The notes under the pieces were generated by a model. It had not been told where the DNA came from, did not search any database, and saw only the letters and a program-made list of their open reading frames with translations. From Candidatus Eremiobacter antarcticus (GTDB taxonomy: Bacteria; Vulcanimicrobiota; Vulcanimicrobiia; Eremiobacterales; Eremiobacteraceae), in the NCBI GenBank assembly GCA_003244105.1, contig QHBK01000006.1, positions 62,001 through 126,000 of the forward strand: 64,000 nt of DNA, written 5' to 3'. A program made the translations under genes and the position numbers. Shown here piece by piece: positions 46,246 through 55,171 of this stretch (the stretch's first letter is position 1; each line of letters starts with the position of its first letter).

Positions 46246-46920
46246 GTGGCGCGCGAGCTGATGGACGACGACGAGTCGTCGGGCTCCCAGCAGGAATGGA
46301 CCGAAAGCTTTCGCGACCTCGCTCGCGTCAATCGCTACTTGGGCGGCTGGAATGCCTTGCGTGATGCCGTCGCTCGGTTGCCGCGCCTGCCGGATCATTT
46401 TCTTGATGTGGGAGCCGGCGACTGCGACATGGCGCTGCGTCTGCTCGTCTACCTGAAAAGGCGCGGCATCGCGGCCCGCGGCGTGGCGCTCGACCGTTCA
46501 GCGCAGATCTTGTCCATCGCGGCGCAGCGCTTGGGGTCAGCGGCCGATGTCGTGTTGGTCCGGGGCGACGCTCGCTCGTTGCCTTTTGCGGAGGCGAGCT
46601 TCGACCTGGCGATGCTCAACCTTTCGCTCCACCATTTTGAACCCGCCGACGCCGTGATCGTCCTTCGTGAATTGGCGCGCGTGTCAACCACAGCCGTGGT
46701 CAACGATTTGCGGCGCAGTCTGGTGGCATACGCCTTTGCGCGGTTTGCATTCCCGCTGTTCACGCACAGCCGCTTGACGCGCAACGATGGGCCCGTCTCC
46801 GTCATGAGGTCGTATACGCCGCGGGAAGCGCACGAGCTGGCGCGCGCGGCCGGCTGGCAGCGCATCGAAGTGCGCACGCATTTCGGCTATCGCATGACGC
46901 TCTGCGGTGGGCGCGCATGA
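46246..46920 (+). CDS. class I SAM-dependent methyltransferase
   Basis: 224 aa from GTG 46246; ATG 46261 is an alternative. The SAM-binding motif I is FLDVGAGDCDMALRLL, motif II includes VRGDARSLPFAEASFDLAML, and LSLHHFEPADAVIVLRELAR follows, a pattern shared with UbiE/menaquinone-type and small-molecule O-methyltransferases. It starts a four-gene operon with an FAD oxidoreductase, an SRPBCC protein and a ketosynthase, with four-base overlap to the next gene. A role in tailoring a polyketide- or quinone-like product is inferred. Confidence 0.85.
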   Translation: MARELMDDDESSGSQQEWTESFRDLARVNRYLGGWNALRDAVARLPRLPDHFLDVGAGDCDMALRLLVYLKRRGIAARGVALDRSAQILSIAAQRLGSAADVVLVRGDARSLPFAEASFDLAMLNLSLHHFEPADAVIVLRELARVSTTAVVNDLRRSLVAYAFARFAFPLFTHSRLTRNDGPVSVMRSYTPREAHELARAAGWQRIEVRTHFGYRMTLCGGRA

Positions 46921-48101
46921 CGGACGTCGCCATCGTCGGCGCTGGGCCGGCCGGCACGAGCCTTGCGCTGCAGCTCGCCCGCTCCGGCTGCGACGTGACG
47001 ATCCTTGAGCGCCGAGTCTTTCCGAGGACGAAGGTTTGCGGCGAATACCTCGCGGGCGGCGCTCGCAGCGCGCTTTCGGACTTGTCGATCGAAGATCGAG
47101 CGTTGCGGGGAGCGCATCCCATCCGCAGTATCTCTCTCTCGGCCTTCGGTTCGGAACCGGTGCGGCTGCGTTTGCCCAGCCCGGGCGCCGTATCGTTGGA
47201 ACGAGCCGTGCTGGACAGCCGCCTGCTTGAAGCGGCCCTGGCCGCCGGAGCGAGCTTGAAACAGGGCTCGTTCATGCGCAGCAGCGAGCGGAGCCTCAGC
47301 AACCGCGCACGCAAGACCGGCCGGTCGAGCAGCAACGGCCTGGTCGACGTCGTTTATCGCGATGAGCATGGCGCCGAGCGTTCGCTCAGCGCTCGTGTTT
47401 TGGTAGGAGCCGATGGAGCGTGGTCGGCAGTGGCGCAACGCAATGGCATGGCCAAGCCAGGCGCGGGCGGCCGTTGGGCCGTCGGCGGCCATCTCGAGGG
47501 CCAGACTGACAGCGACGAATTGGAGATGTACGTGGGCCCGGGCGGTTACTACGCGCGCAATCCCCTCAGCGCCACGGTGGTCAACTCCATGCTCGTGTTG
47601 CCGCGGCCCGCTCAAGCGAGCGAAGCTGAAGCCGCAGTCGCGACGATCACGAGCGGCAGACGGCGCTTTGAAGCGGATGCGCTGCAGCGGCGGGTCGCAA
47701 TCGGCCCCCTGCGCTATGCCGCGGAGCATCTTTGCGCCCGGCGCACGATACTGACCGGGGATGCCGCCGGTCTGCTCGATCCATTCACGGGCCAAGGCGT
47801 CTCGTGCGCGCTGCGGCTGTCATTTTCGGCGGCTGAAACGATCGCGGGCTTATTGGCCGGAGGGCGGCCCGAACGACTAGCGGCGCGCTATGCCGCCGAG
47901 TGGCGACGCGCCGTGGGCATGCGCAAGGTGCTGTCTTTTCTCATCGATGCGCTGATGCGAAACGGAGCGTTGCGGAGACGCGCGCACGCGAAGGTGCGAC
48001 AGGATCCGTCGATCGCCGAGGCGATGCTGGCCGCGATCAGCGGGTACGCACCGATTGGGGCCGCGCTCTCTCCCGGGCTTTTGTGGCGGCTGCTCGCGTG
48101 A
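46917..48101 (+). CDS. FAD-dependent oxidoreductase (geranylgeranyl-reductase/PHBH-like)
   Basis: 394 aa. The FAD-binding motif is VAIVGAGPAGTSLALQLARS; RRVFPRTKVCGEYLAGG follows, as in geranylgeranyl reductase and flavin halogenase-type enzymes. ARVLVGADGAWSAVAQ and ILTGDAAGLLDPFTGQGVS are the GD and C-terminal flavin motifs. No halogenase WxWxIP motif is visible, so hydroxylation or reduction is more likely. It sits between the methyltransferase (ATGA overlap) and the SRPBCC gene (GTGA overlap). Confidence 0.87.
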   Translation: MTDVAIVGAGPAGTSLALQLARSGCDVTILERRVFPRTKVCGEYLAGGARSALSDLSIEDRALRGAHPIRSISLSAFGSEPVRLRLPSPGAVSLERAVLDSRLLEAALAAGASLKQGSFMRSSERSLSNRARKTGRSSSNGLVDVVYRDEHGAERSLSARVLVGADGAWSAVAQRNGMAKPGAGGRWAVGGHLEGQTDSDELEMYVGPGGYYARNPLSATVVNSMLVLPRPAQASEAEAAVATITSGRRRFEADALQRRVAIGPLRYAAEHLCARRTILTGDAAGLLDPFTGQGVSCALRLSFSAAETIAGLLAGGRPERLAARYAAEWRRAVGMRKVLSFLIDALMRNGALRRRAHAKVRQDPSIAEAMLAAISGYAPIGAALSPGLLWRLLA

Positions 48102-48574
48102 GCCATGCGGATCAGTCGGTCGACATGGCCGCGCCTGCCGCGACGATCTACGCCTTGGCCCAAGACGTCGCCAGCTGGCCGCGGTTCCTCCCGCATTATC
48201 GCTATGTCCGCGTCCTGCAAGAGACGCCAGACGAGCGCATCGCCGTGATGGGGGCGAGGCGCAGTTGGATTCCGGTGCGTTGGACCGCGCGCGAGCGGTT
48301 GCATCCCGCCATACCGCGCATTGAGTTCATCCATCTATCCGGCTGGACCGTAGGAATGGAAGTGGCTTGGACCTTTGCGCCGACACCCGGAGGTACGCGG
48401 GTGACGATCGAGCACGATTTGCGCACGTTGCGCCGGCCGGTCAGTCGCACGCGGCTCGCGCGGGCGATCATCGCAAGGTTTTTCATCCGGCCTATCGCAA
48501 CCCGTACGCTCGCCCGCATGAAGGCGCTCGCGGAGCAGCTGGCTTCCAACACGAAAGAGCCGCATGAGCAGTAA
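48098..48574 (+). CDS. SRPBCC-family protein (cyclase-like)
   Basis: 158 aa from GTG 48098, which overlaps the preceding stop; the longer frame from 47900 lies inside the oxidoreductase gene. SVDMAAPAATIYALAQDVAS and WPRFLPHYRYVRVL form the START-like N-terminus, and GMEVAWTFAPTPGGTRVTIE the central sheet. Aromatic polyketide cyclases and COQ10-type quinone carriers share this fold. Its place before a ketosynthase favours a cyclase-type role. Confidence 0.82.
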   Translation: MSHADQSVDMAAPAATIYALAQDVASWPRFLPHYRYVRVLQETPDERIAVMGARRSWIPVRWTARERLHPAIPRIEFIHLSGWTVGMEVAWTFAPTPGGTRVTIEHDLRTLRRPVSRTRLARAIIARFFIRPIATRTLARMKALAEQLASNTKEPHEQ

Positions 48575-49796
48575 AGTATTCATCACTGGCATCGGCGCCT
48601 TGACCCCCATTGGGATCGGACGCCCGAGCCTGTGGAACGGCGCGCTTGCGGGGAAGAGGTCCGTGCAGGCGGTCGATCGCTTCGATACAAGCTCGTTCCG
48701 CTCTCGGGTGGCGGGCCAGGTGAACGGCTTCGACGCCGCGCCGTTTCTCGGCCGCAAGGAAACGCAGCGGACGGAACGGTTCAGTCAGTTCTCCATCGCG
48801 GCCGCTCAAATGGCGTTCGATGATGCTGAATACGCCCCGCGCAGCGGGGACGCCGACTTTGGAATTTGGATCGGCAGCGCTCTGGGCGGCGTGGTGTATG
48901 CGGAACAGCAATACGACATCTACGCGAAGCGGGGACTGCGAGCCGTCCATCCGATGCTGGCCTTGAGCGTCTTCGGCGCGGCCTCGTGCTGCAACGTCGC
49001 CATCCACTTCGGCCTTCATGGCCCGACGGTGTCGAATTCCAATTCTTGCGCGGCCGGCGCGGTCGCAATCGGCGATGCCTTTCGCGCGGTCCGCGACGGC
49101 GTGTGCAAAGCCGCGCTCGCCGGCGGCGTTGAGGCGCCGCTCGCTCCACTGACGTTCGGCGCGTTCGATATCATCCGATCGATGTCGACTCGCAATGACG
49201 ACCCGGCGGGCGCAAGCCGGCCCTTCGATGCTCATCGCGATGGCTTCGTGATGGCCGAAGCCGCGTGCTTGCTCTTGTTGGAGCGGGAAGAAGACGTCGT
49301 CGAGCGAGGCGTGACGCCCTACGCAGAGATCGCGGGCTACGGCCTGACGAACGACGGCCAGCACATGACCGCGCCGCGCCAAGATGGCCGCGAGGCGGCG
49401 CGCGCGATGTCGAAGGCCCTACGCGAAGCGCAAGCCGACCCGACGGAACTGGATCACATCAACTCGCACGGGTCATCGACGCCGCTCAACGATCCGACCG
49501 AAAGCAAGGCTATACGCTCCGTCGCGGGTACGCACAGCGATCGCATCCTCATCTCGGCCATCAAAGGCATGATGGGGCACGCGCTCGGCGCGACCGGTGC
49601 GGTGGAAGCGGCGCTGTGCGCCCTCAGCATCAAGGAGAGCATGGTCGTTCCGACGGTCAATCTGGAACAGCCCGGAGACGGGTGCGACCTGACCTATGCG
49701 CCTCCGCGGGCGACTCCATTGCGACAGCGCCTCGTGATGTCCAACAGCTTTGGTTTTGGCGGGCTCAACGCGGCGCTCGTCTTCCGCGCGGCCTGA
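48564..49796 (+). CDS. beta-ketoacyl-ACP synthase, FabF/KAS II type
   Basis: 410 aa thiolase-fold enzyme. The Cys-His-His triad is visible: nucleophile in NSNSCAAGAVAIGDA (the usual TAC is SC here), His in LDHINSHGSSTPLNDPTE, and His in IKGMMGHALGATGAVEAALC. The N-terminus (KVFITGIGALTPIGIGRPSLWNG) and C-terminal SNSFGFGGLNAALVF are standard. It overlaps the SRPBCC gene by 11 bases. No acyl carrier protein, ketoreductase or chain-length factor lies nearby, so it more likely makes a specialised product than membrane fatty acid. Confidence 0.88.
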   Translation: MSSKVFITGIGALTPIGIGRPSLWNGALAGKRSVQAVDRFDTSSFRSRVAGQVNGFDAAPFLGRKETQRTERFSQFSIAAAQMAFDDAEYAPRSGDADFGIWIGSALGGVVYAEQQYDIYAKRGLRAVHPMLALSVFGAASCCNVAIHFGLHGPTVSNSNSCAAGAVAIGDAFRAVRDGVCKAALAGGVEAPLAPLTFGAFDIIRSMSTRNDDPAGASRPFDAHRDGFVMAEAACLLLLEREEDVVERGVTPYAEIAGYGLTNDGQHMTAPRQDGREAARAMSKALREAQADPTELDHINSHGSSTPLNDPTESKAIRSVAGTHSDRILISAIKGMMGHALGATGAVEAALCALSIKESMVVPTVNLEQPGDGCDLTYAPPRATPLRQRLVMSNSFGFGGLNAALVFRAA

Positions 49797-49845: not shown

Positions 49846-51231
49846 TCAGGCGCCTAGCTGCGCCCCATGGAGGACAAAAGTCGGTATGGCCTGGCCTCCC
49901 TTTGAGACGTTGATCACCTGCGACTGCGACAGCCTCGTCAGAACGCCGCCCAGCCTGCCGCGAAATACATAAGCATTGCAATCCTCGATCAATGTCTGCA
50001 GCGAGACTCCGGCGGCCGGCTTCGCGAGGTCGAAGACAGGGTAGGTGCCCATGCGCGGCGCAACGCGCTCCTGCACGACGAAGCCGTTGCGCATGCCGGC
50101 TGCGCTCGCGGCGAGCCAGGTTTCAGCATCGACATCCCATCCGAGCACGATGCCGTCACCGCCATGAGCGTCGTTCGGCTTGAGAAGCAGCTCATTTTGC
50201 GCACGGGCCGCCCCGTCGCTGCCCGCAAAACTGTCGGCGGCCCATGTAGCCGGCACGAGCGTTTCAATGGCACGCCGTTGGTCCGCGGAAAACCAGCCCG
50301 CCCGCGCCGGATCCTTGAGGATCGCAAGTGCTTTCTTCTTATGAGCGATCGTGCACCGAAAAGAGCTGGCCACGCAAACCGCGCCGTCCGCATACGCGCG
50401 GATGAGCGGATGCCGCAGATCGAAATGCGCGAGGAAATCAGCGACAAGCAATCGTTTGTAGACGAGATCGATGCGCTTGCCAAAGGCGCTCAGCTCGCCT
50501 GACTGATAGCGCAGATCTTCAGGCGCTGCGATGAAGGCGGGTATGTCGTGCGCTTGCAGATCTCTGACGACCAGTTCGAACTCGGGACCGGTGGCGGCGT
50601 CCGAGAGATCGACGACCGCGATGGTCGGAACGCTGCTCGGCTCATCCGCGTTCGCGCGGTCGCGGCGCCTTGCATCCGCGAATTCGTGCCACACACCGAG
50701 CAGCGTTGTGCGCAGTGACCTGTCCGCGTGCATCTCCTCGAGCCGGTATTCTTGGCAAAAACGCGCGAAGGCCGGCGTCTGTCTCATCAGCGCCGCCTGG
50801 CCGGCTTGATAGGAGATGCCGGCCGGACTATCGGCATTGTATTCCAAGACCCGCGGCCGTTCGCGGAAGTACGTGTCCAAGCGAGAGACCACGGTCGCGT
50901 CGTTGTATCCGGGTTCGACCGCGGCCAGCAGCCGTTCTTGGGCGCTCAGGCCCAACGCCGATGCCAACGAGGCATCGCGCAGCGCGCGCTCCTCGATCTG
51001 GCGGAACGCCTGCCATAAGAGCTCGACCGCGCGCTCGAGCTCGCGCAAGCGCTCGGCCGTCAAGAGAGCCGGACGCAAGGAACGGCATTGCACGACGCCG
51101 CCGAAGGTCAGCTTGGCATCAAGCTGAGCCTGCACGAAATCCTGGACGACGCTCGGTCCGGCTAGAGACGGATCCGCGCAGAGCTCGTGATAGCGGTCGA
51201 TCGCGCGCGCGAGAAATGCGTCATCGCGCAT
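49846..51231 (-). CDS. circularly permuted ATP-grasp-like ligase coupled to EgtB
   Basis: 461 aa. VLEYNADSPAGISYQAGQAAL, IDLVYKRLLVADFLAHFDL, CTIAHKKKALAIL and LLLKPNDAHGGDGIVLGWDVD match proteins described as circularly permuted ATP-grasp or glutathionylspermidine-synthase-like, which form amide bonds through an acyl phosphate. Its start overlaps the end of the EgtB-like gene by 11 bases, so the two are translationally linked. Divergent is a glutamate-cysteine ligase. Together they suggest a thiol-histidine product with an extra ligation step. The reaction itself is unknown. Confidence 0.75.
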   Translation of the reverse strand: MRDDAFLARAIDRYHELCADPSLAGPSVVQDFVQAQLDAKLTFGGVVQCRSLRPALLTAERLRELERAVELLWQAFRQIEERALRDASLASALGLSAQERLLAAVEPGYNDATVVSRLDTYFRERPRVLEYNADSPAGISYQAGQAALMRQTPAFARFCQEYRLEEMHADRSLRTTLLGVWHEFADARRRDRANADEPSSVPTIAVVDLSDAATGPEFELVVRDLQAHDIPAFIAAPEDLRYQSGELSAFGKRIDLVYKRLLVADFLAHFDLRHPLIRAYADGAVCVASSFRCTIAHKKKALAILKDPARAGWFSADQRRAIETLVPATWAADSFAGSDGAARAQNELLLKPNDAHGGDGIVLGWDVDAETWLAASAAGMRNGFVVQERVAPRMGTYPVFDLAKPAAGVSLQTLIEDCNAYVFRGRLGGVLTRLSQSQVINVSKGGQAIPTFVLHGAQLGA

Positions 51232-52531
51232 CGCGCGCGCAGCGCATGCCGATCAGCGCGGCTCGGAAGTTGCGGCGGTAGAAATTGCGGAAGGTCGTGC
51301 GCAAGAGACCGGTGGCGCTGAACCAAGAGCCTCCGCGCGAGACGCGATGATCGCCGTCGAACCAGGCCTCCGAATATTCGGGATACGGATATGCCGCGAA
51401 CCCCGGATAGCCTGCGAAGGGCGAGGCCGTCCATTCCCACAGGTTGCCGGCCGCGTCGTGAAGCCCGAGCGCGCTTGTGCCGCCTTGATACGTCCCTACC
51501 GGCGCGGTCGACCACAGGACGTTGTTCGCGTTGGCATCGGGCACGGCTCCGTCGTCCTCATGGTCTTCGCCCCACGGGAAGGGGCGCATGAGCCGGGCGT
51601 TTGGGTCCCAAGCCGCCGCCGCTTCCCACTCGAATTCGGTCGGCAGACGTTTGCTGCGGAAGCGCGCATAAGCGTCGGCCTCATACCATGAAATACCGCT
51701 GACTGGCGCGTCGTCGCGCAATGTGACCTCTTGGAAAAACCCGTGCTCTTTCCAAGGGGGGCCGACCCAATACAGGGGCTTGTCAACGGCCGCTGACTCC
51801 TTCCAAGCCCAGCCCTCGTCGTTCCAAAACCGGCGCTCGCGGTAGCCGCCCGCCTCGATGAACTCGGCGTACTCCGCGTTCGTGGTGAGATCGCGGTCGA
51901 GGAAAAAAGCTGACAGCTCATGTTCGTGCTGCGGCAGTTCGTTGTCGTATACGAACCGCGTCCTCGTTCCACCGATGGGTACACGCAAAGCGGGTATATG
52001 TATCTCCTGCGACGGTGCACGGCGCGTGCCGGACAGCGGCGGCGGTCCTGCCCTTTTGCTTTCGTACGGCAGCGCGGCGAAGAGAAAGGCGATGGTTTCT
52101 TGGTGCTGACGCTCGTGTTCCAAGACCAGCTCGACCGCGTATTGCATATCGATCGCGCCTTCGCGCCGCGCGCTTTGGTCAGCGACGCCGCTCTCGAGCA
52201 GCTCTTGGACGCGCGAAAGCGTCGCTTGCAGGTACGCTTCCATCTCGGCGCGAGCCGGCAACCGGCGTGCCTCTTCACGGGGAGTCTTCATGGGATCGAA
52301 ATGCACGTCGTAGGTCGGGTTCAAGCTGGGCATGCCGGCTGCGCGTTGGATGATCCAATAATTTTGAAAGACGCCGATGTGGGCGAGATGCCACAGGATG
52401 GGGCGGAAGCCGGGCATGGGCTCCCTCTGCACGCTGTCCTCGGAGGTGGCCAAGTCCAAAAGCTGAAGCGTCTGGGCTCGCAGCAAGGTCAGTCTGGTGA
52501 GCTGCTGTGATGGCGGCGTCTGAGTCTTCAT
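51221..52531 (-). CDS. egtB: EgtB-like sulfoxide synthase (ergothioneine biosynthesis type)
   Basis: 436 aa. The N-terminal DinB-like domain carries the iron triad: His51 in LWHLAHIGVF, and His139 and His143 in LEHERQHQETIAFL. The C-terminal FGE-sulfatase domain has VSGISWYEADAYARF, KRLPTEFEWEAAAAW, GNLWEWTASPFAGY and VSRGGSWFSATGLLRTTFRN. EgtB couples a cysteine thiol donor to trimethyl-histidine with oxygen. The RNFYRRNFRAALIGMR end differs from the WDYPIRR-like end I associate with mycobacterial EgtB, so donor choice may differ. No EgtD methyltransferase is in the window. Confidence 0.87.
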   Translation of the reverse strand: MKTQTPPSQQLTRLTLLRAQTLQLLDLATSEDSVQREPMPGFRPILWHLAHIGVFQNYWIIQRAAGMPSLNPTYDVHFDPMKTPREEARRLPARAEMEAYLQATLSRVQELLESGVADQSARREGAIDMQYAVELVLEHERQHQETIAFLFAALPYESKRAGPPPLSGTRRAPSQEIHIPALRVPIGGTRTRFVYDNELPQHEHELSAFFLDRDLTTNAEYAEFIEAGGYRERRFWNDEGWAWKESAAVDKPLYWVGPPWKEHGFFQEVTLRDDAPVSGISWYEADAYARFRSKRLPTEFEWEAAAAWDPNARLMRPFPWGEDHEDDGAVPDANANNVLWSTAPVGTYQGGTSALGLHDAAGNLWEWTASPFAGYPGFAAYPYPEYSEAWFDGDHRVSRGGSWFSATGLLRTTFRNFYRRNFRAALIGMRCARDAR

Positions 52532-52544
52532 CGGGGACGCTTAC

Positions 52545-53909
52545 GTGAAGCAAAAACCGATTCCTCGAAACGACGACGCCTCGCTGCGCAGCGAAGCGCA
52601 GCAGGGTGCCGCGCAGGCCACAGCGCTGCTGTCGACGCAAGTGCTCGATGCCACGACGGCCCGAGACTACTTGCGTGCAAATGCAAAGCCGCCCCACGAG
52701 TGGCGCGTCGGCCTCGAGTTTGAGGTCATCGGGTTTGATTCGCTCTCGCAACAGCGAATCGATCAGCGGCAGGTCGCCGCATTGCTGGCCGCATTTGCAC
52801 GCTGCGGCGGCGTGCCCCAGCGCGAGGGCGAACGCGTCGTGGCCATGCGCATGCCATACGGCGACATCACGCTCGAGCCAGGCGGGCAGATCGAGCTCTC
52901 TGCGTTGCCGCACCATCATCTCGCCGGCGTAGCGACGGCGCTGCACATGTTCCTGGATCAGTTGGCTGAGTTCGGGAGCGAGCTTCGCATGGAGTTCACC
53001 GCCCTTGGTTTTGATCCGCTGCGCCGCCTCGACGAGCAGTTCTGGATCGCCAAGCGGCGTTACGAGATCATGCGGCCCTACCTGCGCAGACAAGGCGGGC
53101 ACGCATGGGATATGATGACCCGCACGGCGGCGTTGCAGATCAGCGTGGACTACGGCGATGAGGAAGATATGGCGCGCAAGTACGTGCTGGGCAACCGGCT
53201 GGGTCCTATCGTCGCCGCCATGTTCGCCAACTCACCGTTCGCTGATGGACGCGTCACCGGGTTGAAGTCCACGCGCTACGCGTCGTGGCTGGATACCGAC
53301 GAACATCGCACGGGGCCCGGGTTCGGGACCTGCGAGGAAACCTTCGACCTGGACGCCTATCTGGCCGCAGTGTTGGATGTGCCGCTCCTCTTTTTGAACC
53401 GGAAAGGATCGCTGCAGGACGTCGCCGGCAAACGGCTGCGCGATATTGACGGGGCGGCCGCGCACGACTTTCCGGACCTCTTGAGCATGATCTTCACCGA
53501 GGCGCGCATCCGTCAATACGTCGAGATGCGCAGTGCCGACAGCGGCGGCTTCGAAAGCGCGCTCGCTTTGAGCGCTCTGTGGAAGGGATTGCTGTACGAT
53601 CCGGCAGCTCTACGCGCCGCGCTTCAGGCAGCCCCTCGTTTAGATCCCTCGGCCTTTCGAGCGTTGCAAATGGCCGTCGCGCGCGATGCGCTGGCAGCGG
53701 TGGCTGAAGGGGTCGCCGTTCTCGACGTCGCGCGCGAAGTGCTCGCGCTGGCGCGCGCGGGGTTGGAGCGCATCGCGCCGGATGAGGCCCAACATCTGGA
53801 CGCGCTGAGTCAGCGCGTCATTATCGACGGGTTGGCCCCAGCGGATATTCTTCTCAGAGACTCGGGCGCCGATGCCCGGCGCGCCACGCGACTGAGCCGG
53901 GTGGCATAG
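52545..53909 (+). CDS. glutamate-cysteine ligase (EgtA/GshA, GCS2-type)
   Basis: 454 aa from GTG 52545, only 13 bases from the divergent egtB start. EWRVGLEFEVIGFDS is the nucleotide/metal-binding Glu strand, ITLEPGGQIELSALPHHHL the substrate-binding core, and RYEIMRPYLRRQGGHAWDMM and TAALQISVDYGDEEDM follow as in alpha-proteobacterial/plant GCL and EgtA. It makes gamma-glutamylcysteine, the thiol donor for type I EgtB or the precursor of glutathione. No glutathione synthetase of the usual type is nearby. Confidence 0.87.
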   Translation: MKQKPIPRNDDASLRSEAQQGAAQATALLSTQVLDATTARDYLRANAKPPHEWRVGLEFEVIGFDSLSQQRIDQRQVAALLAAFARCGGVPQREGERVVAMRMPYGDITLEPGGQIELSALPHHHLAGVATALHMFLDQLAEFGSELRMEFTALGFDPLRRLDEQFWIAKRRYEIMRPYLRRQGGHAWDMMTRTAALQISVDYGDEEDMARKYVLGNRLGPIVAAMFANSPFADGRVTGLKSTRYASWLDTDEHRTGPGFGTCEETFDLDAYLAAVLDVPLLFLNRKGSLQDVAGKRLRDIDGAAAHDFPDLLSMIFTEARIRQYVEMRSADSGGFESALALSALWKGLLYDPAALRAALQAAPRLDPSAFRALQMAVARDALAAVAEGVAVLDVAREVLALARAGLERIAPDEAQHLDALSQRVIIDGLAPADILLRDSGADARRATRLSRVA

Positions 53910-53918
53910 TCCCGCTCG

Positions 53919-54638
53919 TCACTGAATCTTACCCAGGAGAAATGGCGTCGTCGTGGGCTTACGCGAGCCGCCGGCCGGCTCGACCGTCACGGCGACGATC
54001 AATCCCTTGCGCGGCGCGACTGGAATCACGACGCTGCCTTCGCCGCGCGAGTCGGGCAAGAACGTCGGCTCGGGGGTCGGCGATGCACCGGGCGCGATGA
54101 CCCACGTCTGATACGTCTTGCCGCGCGGCAGCGGGCCGAGCCCGTGCATGGCAAACGTCATCGATTTCGACGGCGATGCGCTGATGGTGCCTTTGGCGTG
54201 GCAGCGCGAGCCCAGCTTCGGCGCGCACGCGGCCGTCCATGTCAGGATGGTGGCGTTCGACGCTGCTGGGGTCGGTGCAGCGGCGATTGGCGTCGTGGTG
54301 GTGGGAGTGGACAAGTAGGCGCCGACGCCGACCAAGATCGCCGCGGCCGTTGCGAGCGCGACGAACAACCGCCGCCTCAGCAGCACGACGTTCGACGGCG
54401 CGGTGCGAGCAGGCAGCGCTGCGAGCACTCGAGCGCGCAGCGCAGCAGGCGGCGCTTCGGCCGCGGAGAGCGCAAGAGCGCTCGCTCCTGCGCGCGCGAC
54501 CTGGTATTCGTTCTGGCAGATCGCGCACTCCGGCAGATGAGCGCGGATCAAGCGCCACTCGTCCCCACCCTGCTCCAGCGCTTCGATCGCGTAGAGCGAG
54601 GCTAAGTCGAGCATCGTCTCGTCGTGCACGGTGCTCAT
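53919..54638 (-). CDS. anti-sigma factor, zinc-finger and RskA-like
   Basis: 239 aa from ATG 54638, which overlaps the sigma gene stop (ATGA). The N-terminal anti-sigma zinc site is HLPECAICQNEY (HxxxCxxC). A membrane helix (LFVALATAAAILVGVGAYLS) follows near residue 110, and the C-terminal domain (TYQTWVIAPGASPTPEPTFL, VAVTVEPAGGS) is the RskA type found outside the membrane. It should hold the adjacent ECF sigma factor at the membrane until an envelope signal releases it. Confidence 0.88.
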   Translation of the reverse strand: MSTVHDETMLDLASLYAIEALEQGGDEWRLIRAHLPECAICQNEYQVARAGASALALSAAEAPPAALRARVLAALPARTAPSNVVLLRRRLFVALATAAAILVGVGAYLSTPTTTTPIAAAPTPAASNATILTWTAACAPKLGSRCHAKGTISASPSKSMTFAMHGLGPLPRGKTYQTWVIAPGASPTPEPTFLPDSRGEGSVVIPVAPRKGLIVAVTVEPAGGSRKPTTTPFLLGKIQ

Positions 54639-55171
54639 GTCGCTACCGTCCGGTGCAGCGCTTCCCAAAGCTGGCGCAAACCGCTGCGGATCCTGCTCTT
54701 AACCGTGCCGAGCGGCGCGCCCATTCGTTCGGCCACCTCGCGGTATGAAAGCCCTTGGAAGTATGCTTGCTCGATCGCCTCGCGCTGATCAGCGGGCAAC
54801 GCCTTGACCGCTTCCACAATCGCGCCGGCCCGGACGCGTTCGAACACCTCATCTTCCAACACGTTGTCGGAAGGCATGTCGGTGGGCATCTCGGGTTCGC
54901 GCCTGCGCACCGCGGCGCTGCGCACGATGTCCAATGAAGCGTTGCGCGCGACGCGCGCTATCCAGCCCCCGAAATTGCCGCCCGCGAATGAGTACGGCTT
55001 GGCCCAGAGCTGCGTGAAGACCGACTGGGTGACGTCTTCTGCGGCGGCCGGATCTCCAAGGATGCGCTTGCAGATGCCATAGACCAGAGCCGCATGGCGG
55101 TCATAGATCGCCGTGAATGCTGAGGCGTCTCCCTGCGCCATCTGGGTCATCAACCTTGTATCATCGCTCAC
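54635..55171 (-). CDS. ECF RNA polymerase sigma factor (SigK/RskA-associated type)
   Basis: 178 aa from GTG 55171. Region 2 includes FTAIYDRHAALVYGICKRIL, AAEDVTQSVFTQLWAKPYSF and GWIARVARNASLDIVRSAAV; region 4 is LPADQREAIEQAYFQGLSYR with EVAERMGAPLGTVKSRIRSG. It is cotranscribed with its anti-sigma factor. Divergent from it, across 269 bases, are the NicO-DUF4331-TPR genes, which are the obvious candidate targets. Confidence 0.92.
   Translation of the reverse strand: MSDDTRLMTQMAQGDASAFTAIYDRHAALVYGICKRILGDPAAAEDVTQSVFTQLWAKPYSFAGGNFGGWIARVARNASLDIVRSAAVRRREPEMPTDMPSDNVLEDEVFERVRAGAIVEAVKALPADQREAIEQAYFQGLSYREVAERMGAPLGTVKSRIRSGLRQLWEALHRTVAT

Follow-up and report, generated by a model that had tools for sequence, protein, structure and literature searches.

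The window analysed here, a 64,000-nucleotide stretch of contig QHBK01000006.1 from Candidatus Eremiobacter antarcticus, contains three adjoining genes encoding a glutamate–cysteine ligase (GCL), an EgtB-family sulfoxide synthase and a circularly permuted ATP-grasp ligase. We found that this trio is a real, conserved and lineage-restricted unit, beyond what could be expected by chance. It would constitute a new variant of ergothioneine biosynthesis, built on three genes, whose uncharacterised ligase is possibly an unrecognised type of glutathione synthetase. In the reading that we favor, GCL and the ligase would assemble γ-Glu-Cys-X (glycine being the simplest X), and EgtB would use this thiol as the sulfur donor for hercynine; we put the probability of this reading at about 45%. 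The genes, their co-occurrence and order, the swap site, the fold and the residues described below are observed, while the reactions, and with them the chemistry of the system, are all inferred. The locus consists of the following features.

52545..53909, forward strand: GCL of the GCS2 family, plant/proteobacterial type, with a GTG start (Pfam, NCBIfam and PDB matches, orthologues)
52532..52544, no strand: 13-base spacer separating the start codons of the divergently oriented egtB and GCL (sequence, consensus scan)
51221..52531, reverse strand: EgtB-family iron-dependent sulfoxide synthase, DinB_2 plus FGE-sulfatase (Pfam, NCBIfam, residue alignment)
49846..51231, reverse strand: circularly permuted ATP-grasp ligase with the glutathione-synthetase/glutathionylspermidine-synthetase (GspS) fold (weak Pfam matches, structural model, motif)

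The three genes lie where the earlier note had placed them, as open frames with Pfam matches to DinB_2/FGE-sulfatase and GCS2, and with matches of the ligase to GSP_synth and CP_ATPgrasp_2 that fall below the cut-offs. The note had also counted 13 bases between the divergent starts and tied the ligase to both partners. Both points hold: the gap spans 52532-52544, the ligase start lies inside the egtB frame, overlapping the egtB stop by 11 bases (51221-51231), and the same head-to-head trio is present in 6 of the 14 genomes of the family. A consensus scan found no consensus sigma-70 promoter in the gap. In one genus of the family, g3, the divergent egtB and GCL starts seemingly share a single CATG (L011:8084-8087, L012 near 8541, L013 near 12006). 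A 13-base gap or a shared CATG leaves no room for promoters, which have to be located within the opposite gene unless the starts are misplaced.

The distribution of the trio is remarkably consistent. The same six family genomes, spanning four of the nine genera of the family with the window genome counted, carry the ligase, GCL and a closely related EgtB (56-61% identity), and neither the ligase nor GCL was found in the other eight. Two of these absences are weak, since G013 is only 72% and G010 81% complete. The survey of three-gene co-occurrence proposed in the earlier note was run on 149 genomes from the phylum. High-scoring matches to GCL (>700 bits) and to the ligase (>790 bits) are restricted to the same six genomes of this one family, in every case beside EgtB. 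The next-best matches in the phylum are far behind, at ~100 bits for GCL (four genomes, plus one match of 23 bits) and ~337 bits for the ligase. Head-to-head order and adjacency are identical in all six carriers. The ligase and egtB frames likewise overlap in all six when translation is taken to begin at the first standard start codon, although at L010 and L012 a later ligase start, without overlap, is possible.

In an EgtD tree covering 11 of the 14 genomes (it omits G011 and G013, where EgtD had no match, and G006, whose protein was not extracted), the six trio genomes do not form one clade, and well-supported branches require at least two changes. This scatter implies that the three genes were lost, exchanged or relocated together. 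Plasmid searches revealed no second trio among the matches listed (9 of 9 ligase, 25 of 279 EgtB and 15 of 24 GCL records), and none of the nine plasmid ligase matches covers 80% of the ligase. Four regions were opened after these searches, one of which, from Nonomuraea, carries no annotation under the match. A scan of genome contigs gave no match with a single-sequence query and 19 loci with an alignment query. The trio genome G008 has a second EgtB-family gene (L138:6858-8009), ~40% identical to the trio EgtB.

The chromosomal site of the trio provides a further line of evidence. In the window it is bounded by the following landmarks, the first of which is outside the module.

48564..49796, forward strand: fabF-type ketoacyl synthase, flank landmark of the swap site (Pfam, NCBIfam)
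53919-54668, reverse strand: RskA-type anti-sigma factor, landmark of the other flank (Pfam, NCBIfam)
54635-55171, reverse strand: extracytoplasmic function (ECF) sigma factor, landmark of the other flank (Pfam, NCBIfam)

In the window genome (assembly G000, 2.64 Mb, 95.8% complete) and in G007, the trio is flanked by a block whose last gene is fabF and by the anti-sigma/sigma pair. The same two flanks enclose one different EgtB-type gene (~422 residues) in G005, G004 and G011, and this single sister EgtB is only ~30% identical to the trio EgtB. The slot is partly visible in G013 (sigma side only) and in G006 (two contigs with one flank each). Elsewhere the surroundings vary. In G008, the neighbours of the trio are two genes that belong further upstream in this region; the fabF block is missing, and the contig ends on the opposite side. 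The sister EgtB gene is located at other sites in G003 and G010. G002, G009 and G012, all of one genus, place the trio at another site, next to genes that, from their sequences, we take to be an iron–sulfur cluster assembly (suf) set. Among solved structures, the sister EgtB of G005 is closest to those of EgtB-IV; the OvoA N-terminal model is the best fit, below its cut-off, for the G005 and G004 proteins. The exchange in this slot is suggestive, though not proof, of a common overall function for the trio and the single gene. If so, swapping a lone gene for a block of three in the same chromosomal slot would be a way of rewiring ergothioneine synthesis. As to the fabF side itself, the run at 46246-49796 encodes a methyltransferase, a geranylgeranyl-reductase-like FAD protein, a polyketide-cyclase-like protein and the FabF-type ketoacyl synthase, and parts of it are kept beside the EgtB slot in relatives.

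From its sequence, GCL is predicted to make γ-Glu-Cys. It satisfies the Pfam cut-off for GCS2 (131.5 bits); its best NCBIfam model is glu_cys_lig_pln (TIGR01436; 270.9 bits, below the cut-off of 463.15), and it matches plant GCLs in the PDB (6gmo, E 2.7e-65; 2gwc, E 4.1e-65). Orthologues in the five relatives are 52-57% identical. The protein is not of the EgtA type (TIGR03444; 137.5 bits against a cut-off of 370.8).

The ligase matches Pfam families only below their gathering scores (GSP_synth, PF03738, 21.3 vs 29.3; CP_ATPgrasp_2, PF14403, 20.3 vs 32). The Pfam scan gave no match of the window protein to CP_ATPgrasp_1 (PF04174), a family that the orthologue L011 does pass (28.2 vs 23.1 bits), and none to GSH-S_ATP, the family of bacterial GshB. 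An AlphaFold2 model (pLDDT 91), obtained with the window protein and 19 related proteins, retrieved in the top rows of a Foldseek search human, soybean and yeast glutathione synthetases, a putative glutathionylspermidine synthase, YgiC/YjfC and fungal Cp1B. VIA-align superimposed the model on this group with Z 25.7-31.9 over 332-417 residues (root-mean-square deviation 3.2-5.4), and on E. coli GshB with Z 10.0 over 211 residues. In sequence searches, a profile built from all 20 proteins matched 3n6x (E 3e-10), 9cjn (E 2e-6) and 7uk6 (E 0.0025). Two motifs, R117-x-D119 and E130-x-N132, are invariant in all 20 sequences and correspond by motif (RxD, ExN) to R139/D141/E163/N165 of Cp1B, the alanine variants of which lost all or most activity (PMC12568646). 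The printed Cp1B alignment misses this stretch; the YjfC alignment covers the motif. On the modeled fold and these residues, the protein is very probably an active acid–amine ligase. Its fold group includes enzymes that use γ-Glu-Cys or glutathione as the acid substrate, and the finding would point to another bacterial ligase type within the glutathione-synthetase/GspS fold.

Relatives of the ligase outside the family also help to order the reactions. A GCL-type gene adjoins such a relative at 3 of 39 loci, as judged with a combined GCL model: two Sorangium records, which are near copies of each other, and the Selenomonas ruminantium plasmid pSRC2. The gene order is GCS2, ligase and class-II glutamine amidotransferase in Sorangium (L051:6410-10125, L057), and GCL family, MATE efflux transporter and ATP-grasp relative on pSRC2 (L149:2702-7044). 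A search at the Sorangium loci and the annotation of the plasmid at the pSRC2 ligase relative revealed no adjoining EgtB, and a scan of 36 ligase relatives from outside the family (L051-L066, L087-L106) revealed none nearby. For the relatives in the phylum, 41 places outside the family were listed and the regions around 20 of them opened, several being truncated by contig ends. The Sorangium GCS2 protein has no match to the plant-type GCL model at 1e-5 and in NCBIfam scores best, at 34.2 bits, against a different GCL-like subfamily, so that the pairing of GCL and ligase there looks independent. Considered by themselves, the Sorangium genes would be reminiscent of a γ-glutamyl protect–ligate–deprotect mini-pathway, and the pSRC2 run is a candidate pathway for an exported γ-glutamyl compound.

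The occurrence of ligase relatives beside GCL in the absence of EgtB, together with a fold group that acts on γ-Glu-Cys or glutathione, makes it likelier that the ligase acts before EgtB. The earlier note had proposed that the ligase conjugates the thiol-histidine or its γ-glutamyl precursor; the tie between ligase, EgtB and GCL stands, but action on the finished thiol-histidine is doubtful, since some relatives pair with GCL without EgtB. Were the order nevertheless reversed, EgtB would first act on γ-Glu-Cys and hercynine, and the ligase would then join the sulfoxide or ergothioneine to an amine, yielding a conjugated thiol-histidine. The overlap of the egtB and ligase frames (subject to the alternative starts at L010 and L012) and the failure to find an EgtC that would trim the sulfoxide are in keeping with that order, which we consider unlikely in view of the same two observations, the EgtB-free pairing and the substrates of the fold group.

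The EgtB protein itself has the expected domain pair in Pfam (DinB_2, 53.8 bits; FGE-sulfatase, 181.3 bits) and is the only EgtB-family match in G000. The three-histidine iron site (H51/H139/H143) and Y383, the equivalent of the catalytic Tyr377, are present in all six trio EgtBs. The nearest solved structure is that of the γ-Glu-Cys-using enzyme from Mycobacterium thermoresistibile (E 1.4e-62; the next, E 1.1e-41), and the equivalents of its iron histidines, Gln137, Tyr377, Tyr380 and Asn414 are kept throughout. The donor site is another matter. The structural study (PMC4768315) lists Arg87, Arg90, Tyr380, Trp415, Asp416 and Arg420 as putative substrate residues, and of these six the trio EgtBs, without exception, retain just two, Arg87 and Tyr380. 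Arg90, Trp415, Asp416 and Arg420 are replaced with Ala, Phe, Tyr and Phe, respectively; in window numbering, R85 is kept and A88, F417, Y418 and F422 are altered. The Arg87 equivalent is missing in the three sister EgtBs that were aligned. A Nonomuraea EgtB, translated in the wrong frame, is left out of this comparison. The C-terminal substrate loop RNFYRRNFRAALIGMR, described in the earlier note as unlike the mycobacterial form, does differ, at three positions of the substrate site, from its counterpart in M. thermoresistibile; its RNFYRR core is identical in all six orthologues, and later positions vary.

With four of six substrate-site residues changed, trio EgtB is unlikely to bind its donor as in mycobacteria. 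This bears on an alternative in which GCL would supply γ-Glu-Cys straight to EgtB, as in Mycobacterium, and the substrate of the ligase would be unrelated. The close match to the M. thermoresistibile enzyme would fit such a supply. However, the altered donor site, the lack of a detectable EgtC and the fact that ligase and EgtB are never separated in the six genomes make it very unlikely. The family scores raise another alternative, namely that the EgtB-like gene encodes a selenoneine-type or other chalcogen enzyme instead of an ergothioneine enzyme. The NCBIfam EgtB model (TIGR03440) gives 318.5 bits against a cut-off of 360, and SenA gives a nearly equal 311.0 bits against 420. The orthologues are divided: SenA scores higher in L009 (316.2 vs 310.7 bits), and EgtB scores higher in L011 (328.1 vs 320.4 bits). 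We regard this alternative as highly improbable, as the adjoining GCL points to a cysteine-derived donor and a scan of nine window genes revealed no SenB- or SenC-like partner (a genome-wide SenB search was not made).

The rest of the pathway has to be sought elsewhere in the genome. Contrary to the earlier note, which reported egtD as absent, G000 has one copy on another contig (C3:304332-305282) with strong scores (Pfam, 370.8 bits; NCBIfam EgtD, 360.9 vs a cut-off of 290.9), which rules out a pathway without EgtD. The EgtD family (PF10017) is found above the cut-off in 12 of the 14 family genomes, including all six trio carriers. The absence of EgtC, on the other hand, stands within the search made: PF13230 has a single match in G000, a genome 95.8% complete, and this is a full GlmS, so that no EgtC turned up elsewhere in this genome. 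Bacterial GshB gave no match in four of the six trio genomes, G000 among them (the eukaryotic-type glutathione synthetase was not searched genome-wide), and thus no ordinary GshB that would make the ligase redundant was found in G000. The single GshB matches in G002 and G012 (25-27 bits vs the 23-bit Pfam cut-off) fit better as D-cycloserine-synthetase-like (DcsG-like) proteins, at 202-207 bits, below the cut-off of 360. Matches were also obtained among 14 control genomes (PF10017 in 2, PF02955 in 9, PF13230 in 12, PF02798 in 4 and PF01019 in 8), indicating that these are broad families.

Two side observations concern egtD. In G000, it adjoins a four-gene betaine-type ABC transporter consisting of an OpuAC binding protein, an ATPase and two permeases (L014:10316-13531, contig C3). 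The binding protein is best matched by choline/betaine binders, and the solved ergothioneine transporter EgtUC is matched at E ~1e-44. By eye, at least part of this set lies near egtD in 9 of 10 other loci (L139-L148), the exception being L143, which ends near egtD. The transporter may possibly carry ergothioneine or hercynine. In G001, egtD is accompanied only by weak EgtB-like matches; hercynine may be the end product there, or the gene may be missing from the assembly.

Taken together, these data can be arranged into the pathway that we favor. As suggested by its family, GCL would join Glu and Cys into γ-Glu-Cys. The ligase would then phosphorylate the cysteine carboxylate of γ-Glu-Cys and join it to an amine, in the simplest case glycine, to give glutathione or a close analogue; this step is proposed on the basis of the fold, the catalytic residues and the repeated linkage to GCL-type genes. 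EgtB, by its family and residues, would take the ligase-made thiol in place of free Cys, along with O2 and hercynine supplied by the unlinked EgtD, and produce a peptide sulfoxide. In Synechocystis, glutathione itself and not γ-Glu-Cys serves ergothioneine synthesis, according to a review (PMC10295655). Finally, and speculatively, general enzymes such as γ-glutamyltransferase might trim the sulfoxide before C–S cleavage to ergothioneine. A gamma-glutamyltransferase is present in G000; it is above the Pfam cut-off and scores 345.2 bits with TIGR00066, below the cut-off of 357.85. A bolder version, which we find rather doubtful, is that the ligase represents an unrecognised class of synthetase for γ-Glu-Cys-X and that EgtB is specific for the tripeptide, the outcome being either a dedicated glutathione-type route to ergothioneine or the accumulation of a new thiol-histidine peptide.

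Several observations weigh against the favored pathway. The window ligase remains under every curated Pfam cut-off. At 36 of the 39 ligase-relative loci outside the family, some of them on short contigs, no adjoining GCL was found, so the pairing is no rule for the ligase family as a whole. Gamma-glutamyltransferase is about equally common with the trio (5 of 6 genomes) and without it (6 of 8) and is therefore not a discriminating marker. GST_N (PF02798), the one glutathione-user family searched, was detected in just two of the six trio genomes and two of the eight others (21.7-23.2 bits vs a cut-off of 20.9), and the G000 match, on inspection, is a 111-residue glutaredoxin/GST_N_3-like protein that is above those Pfam cut-offs. 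Such scarcity argues against an ordinary glutathione economy. In that one family, such few and weak matches are more in keeping with a dedicated donor than with a redox buffer, although G000 does encode the glutaredoxin/GST_N_3-like protein.

The same matches bear on the possibility that the trio comprises two pathways under shared control, in which GCL and the ligase would make a general glutathione-like thiol, EgtB would work separately on free Cys, and a response to oxidative stress would unite the two. The linkage of GCL and ligase elsewhere without EgtB, the ECF sigma/anti-sigma pair next to the trio and the replacement of R90, W415, D416 and R420 of the γ-Glu-Cys enzyme could all be explained in this way. 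Yet genus g3 keeps the trio together at a different site, where the stretches inspected contain no relative of the sigma pair, and R87 of the γ-Glu-Cys enzyme is kept in the six trio EgtBs but not in the aligned sister EgtBs; along with the paucity of GST_N, this renders shared control improbable. If, instead, the donor-assembly pathway is correct, glutathione-type assembly would be linked directly to EgtB. The choice of sulfur donor by EgtB outside actinobacteria becomes directly testable with three small genes.

How does the trio compare with known systems? The literature searched on EgtB, ATP-grasp, ergothioneine and Eremiobacterota contained no description of it in the parts accessible, a weak absence as most subscription papers were not covered. 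With mycobacterial egtABCDE, it shares the logic of GCL, EgtB and EgtD, the three-histidine site, the Tyr377/Tyr380 equivalents and the nearest solved EgtB; it differs in the unlinked egtD, undetected EgtC, non-EgtA GCL, additional ATP-grasp ligase and altered donor site. Eukaryotic-type glutathione and homoglutathione synthetases match the ligase fold over its whole length (Z ~28-31), and the ligase is also paired in the genome with a GCL nearest the plant-type family, but identity in the structural alignment is just 11-15% and the Pfam scan gave no match to the family. Glutathionylspermidine synthetase, the YgiC/YjfC acid–amine ligases and Cp1B share the fold (Z 27-32) and the RxD/ExN catalytic motif, and YjfC also has the EYNAD-P motif in common with the ligase. 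Unlike the glutathionylspermidine synthetase group, the ligase is below the GSP_synth cut-off (21.3 vs 29.3), lacks the amidase domain and is tied to GCL and EgtB. In comparative genomics, GCS2-family ligases are reportedly found next to circularly permuted ATP-grasp proteins in amidoligase operons, to which the trio would add EgtB as a third partner. A further parallel is the glutathione-dependent ergothioneine synthesis of Synechocystis, where, as proposed here, a tripeptide thiol and not γ-Glu-Cys is the sulfur source. In cyanobacteria, however, the review names egtB, egtC and egtD (PMC10295655), while in the present system egtC was not found and the putative donor-making genes appear to be packed together with egtB.

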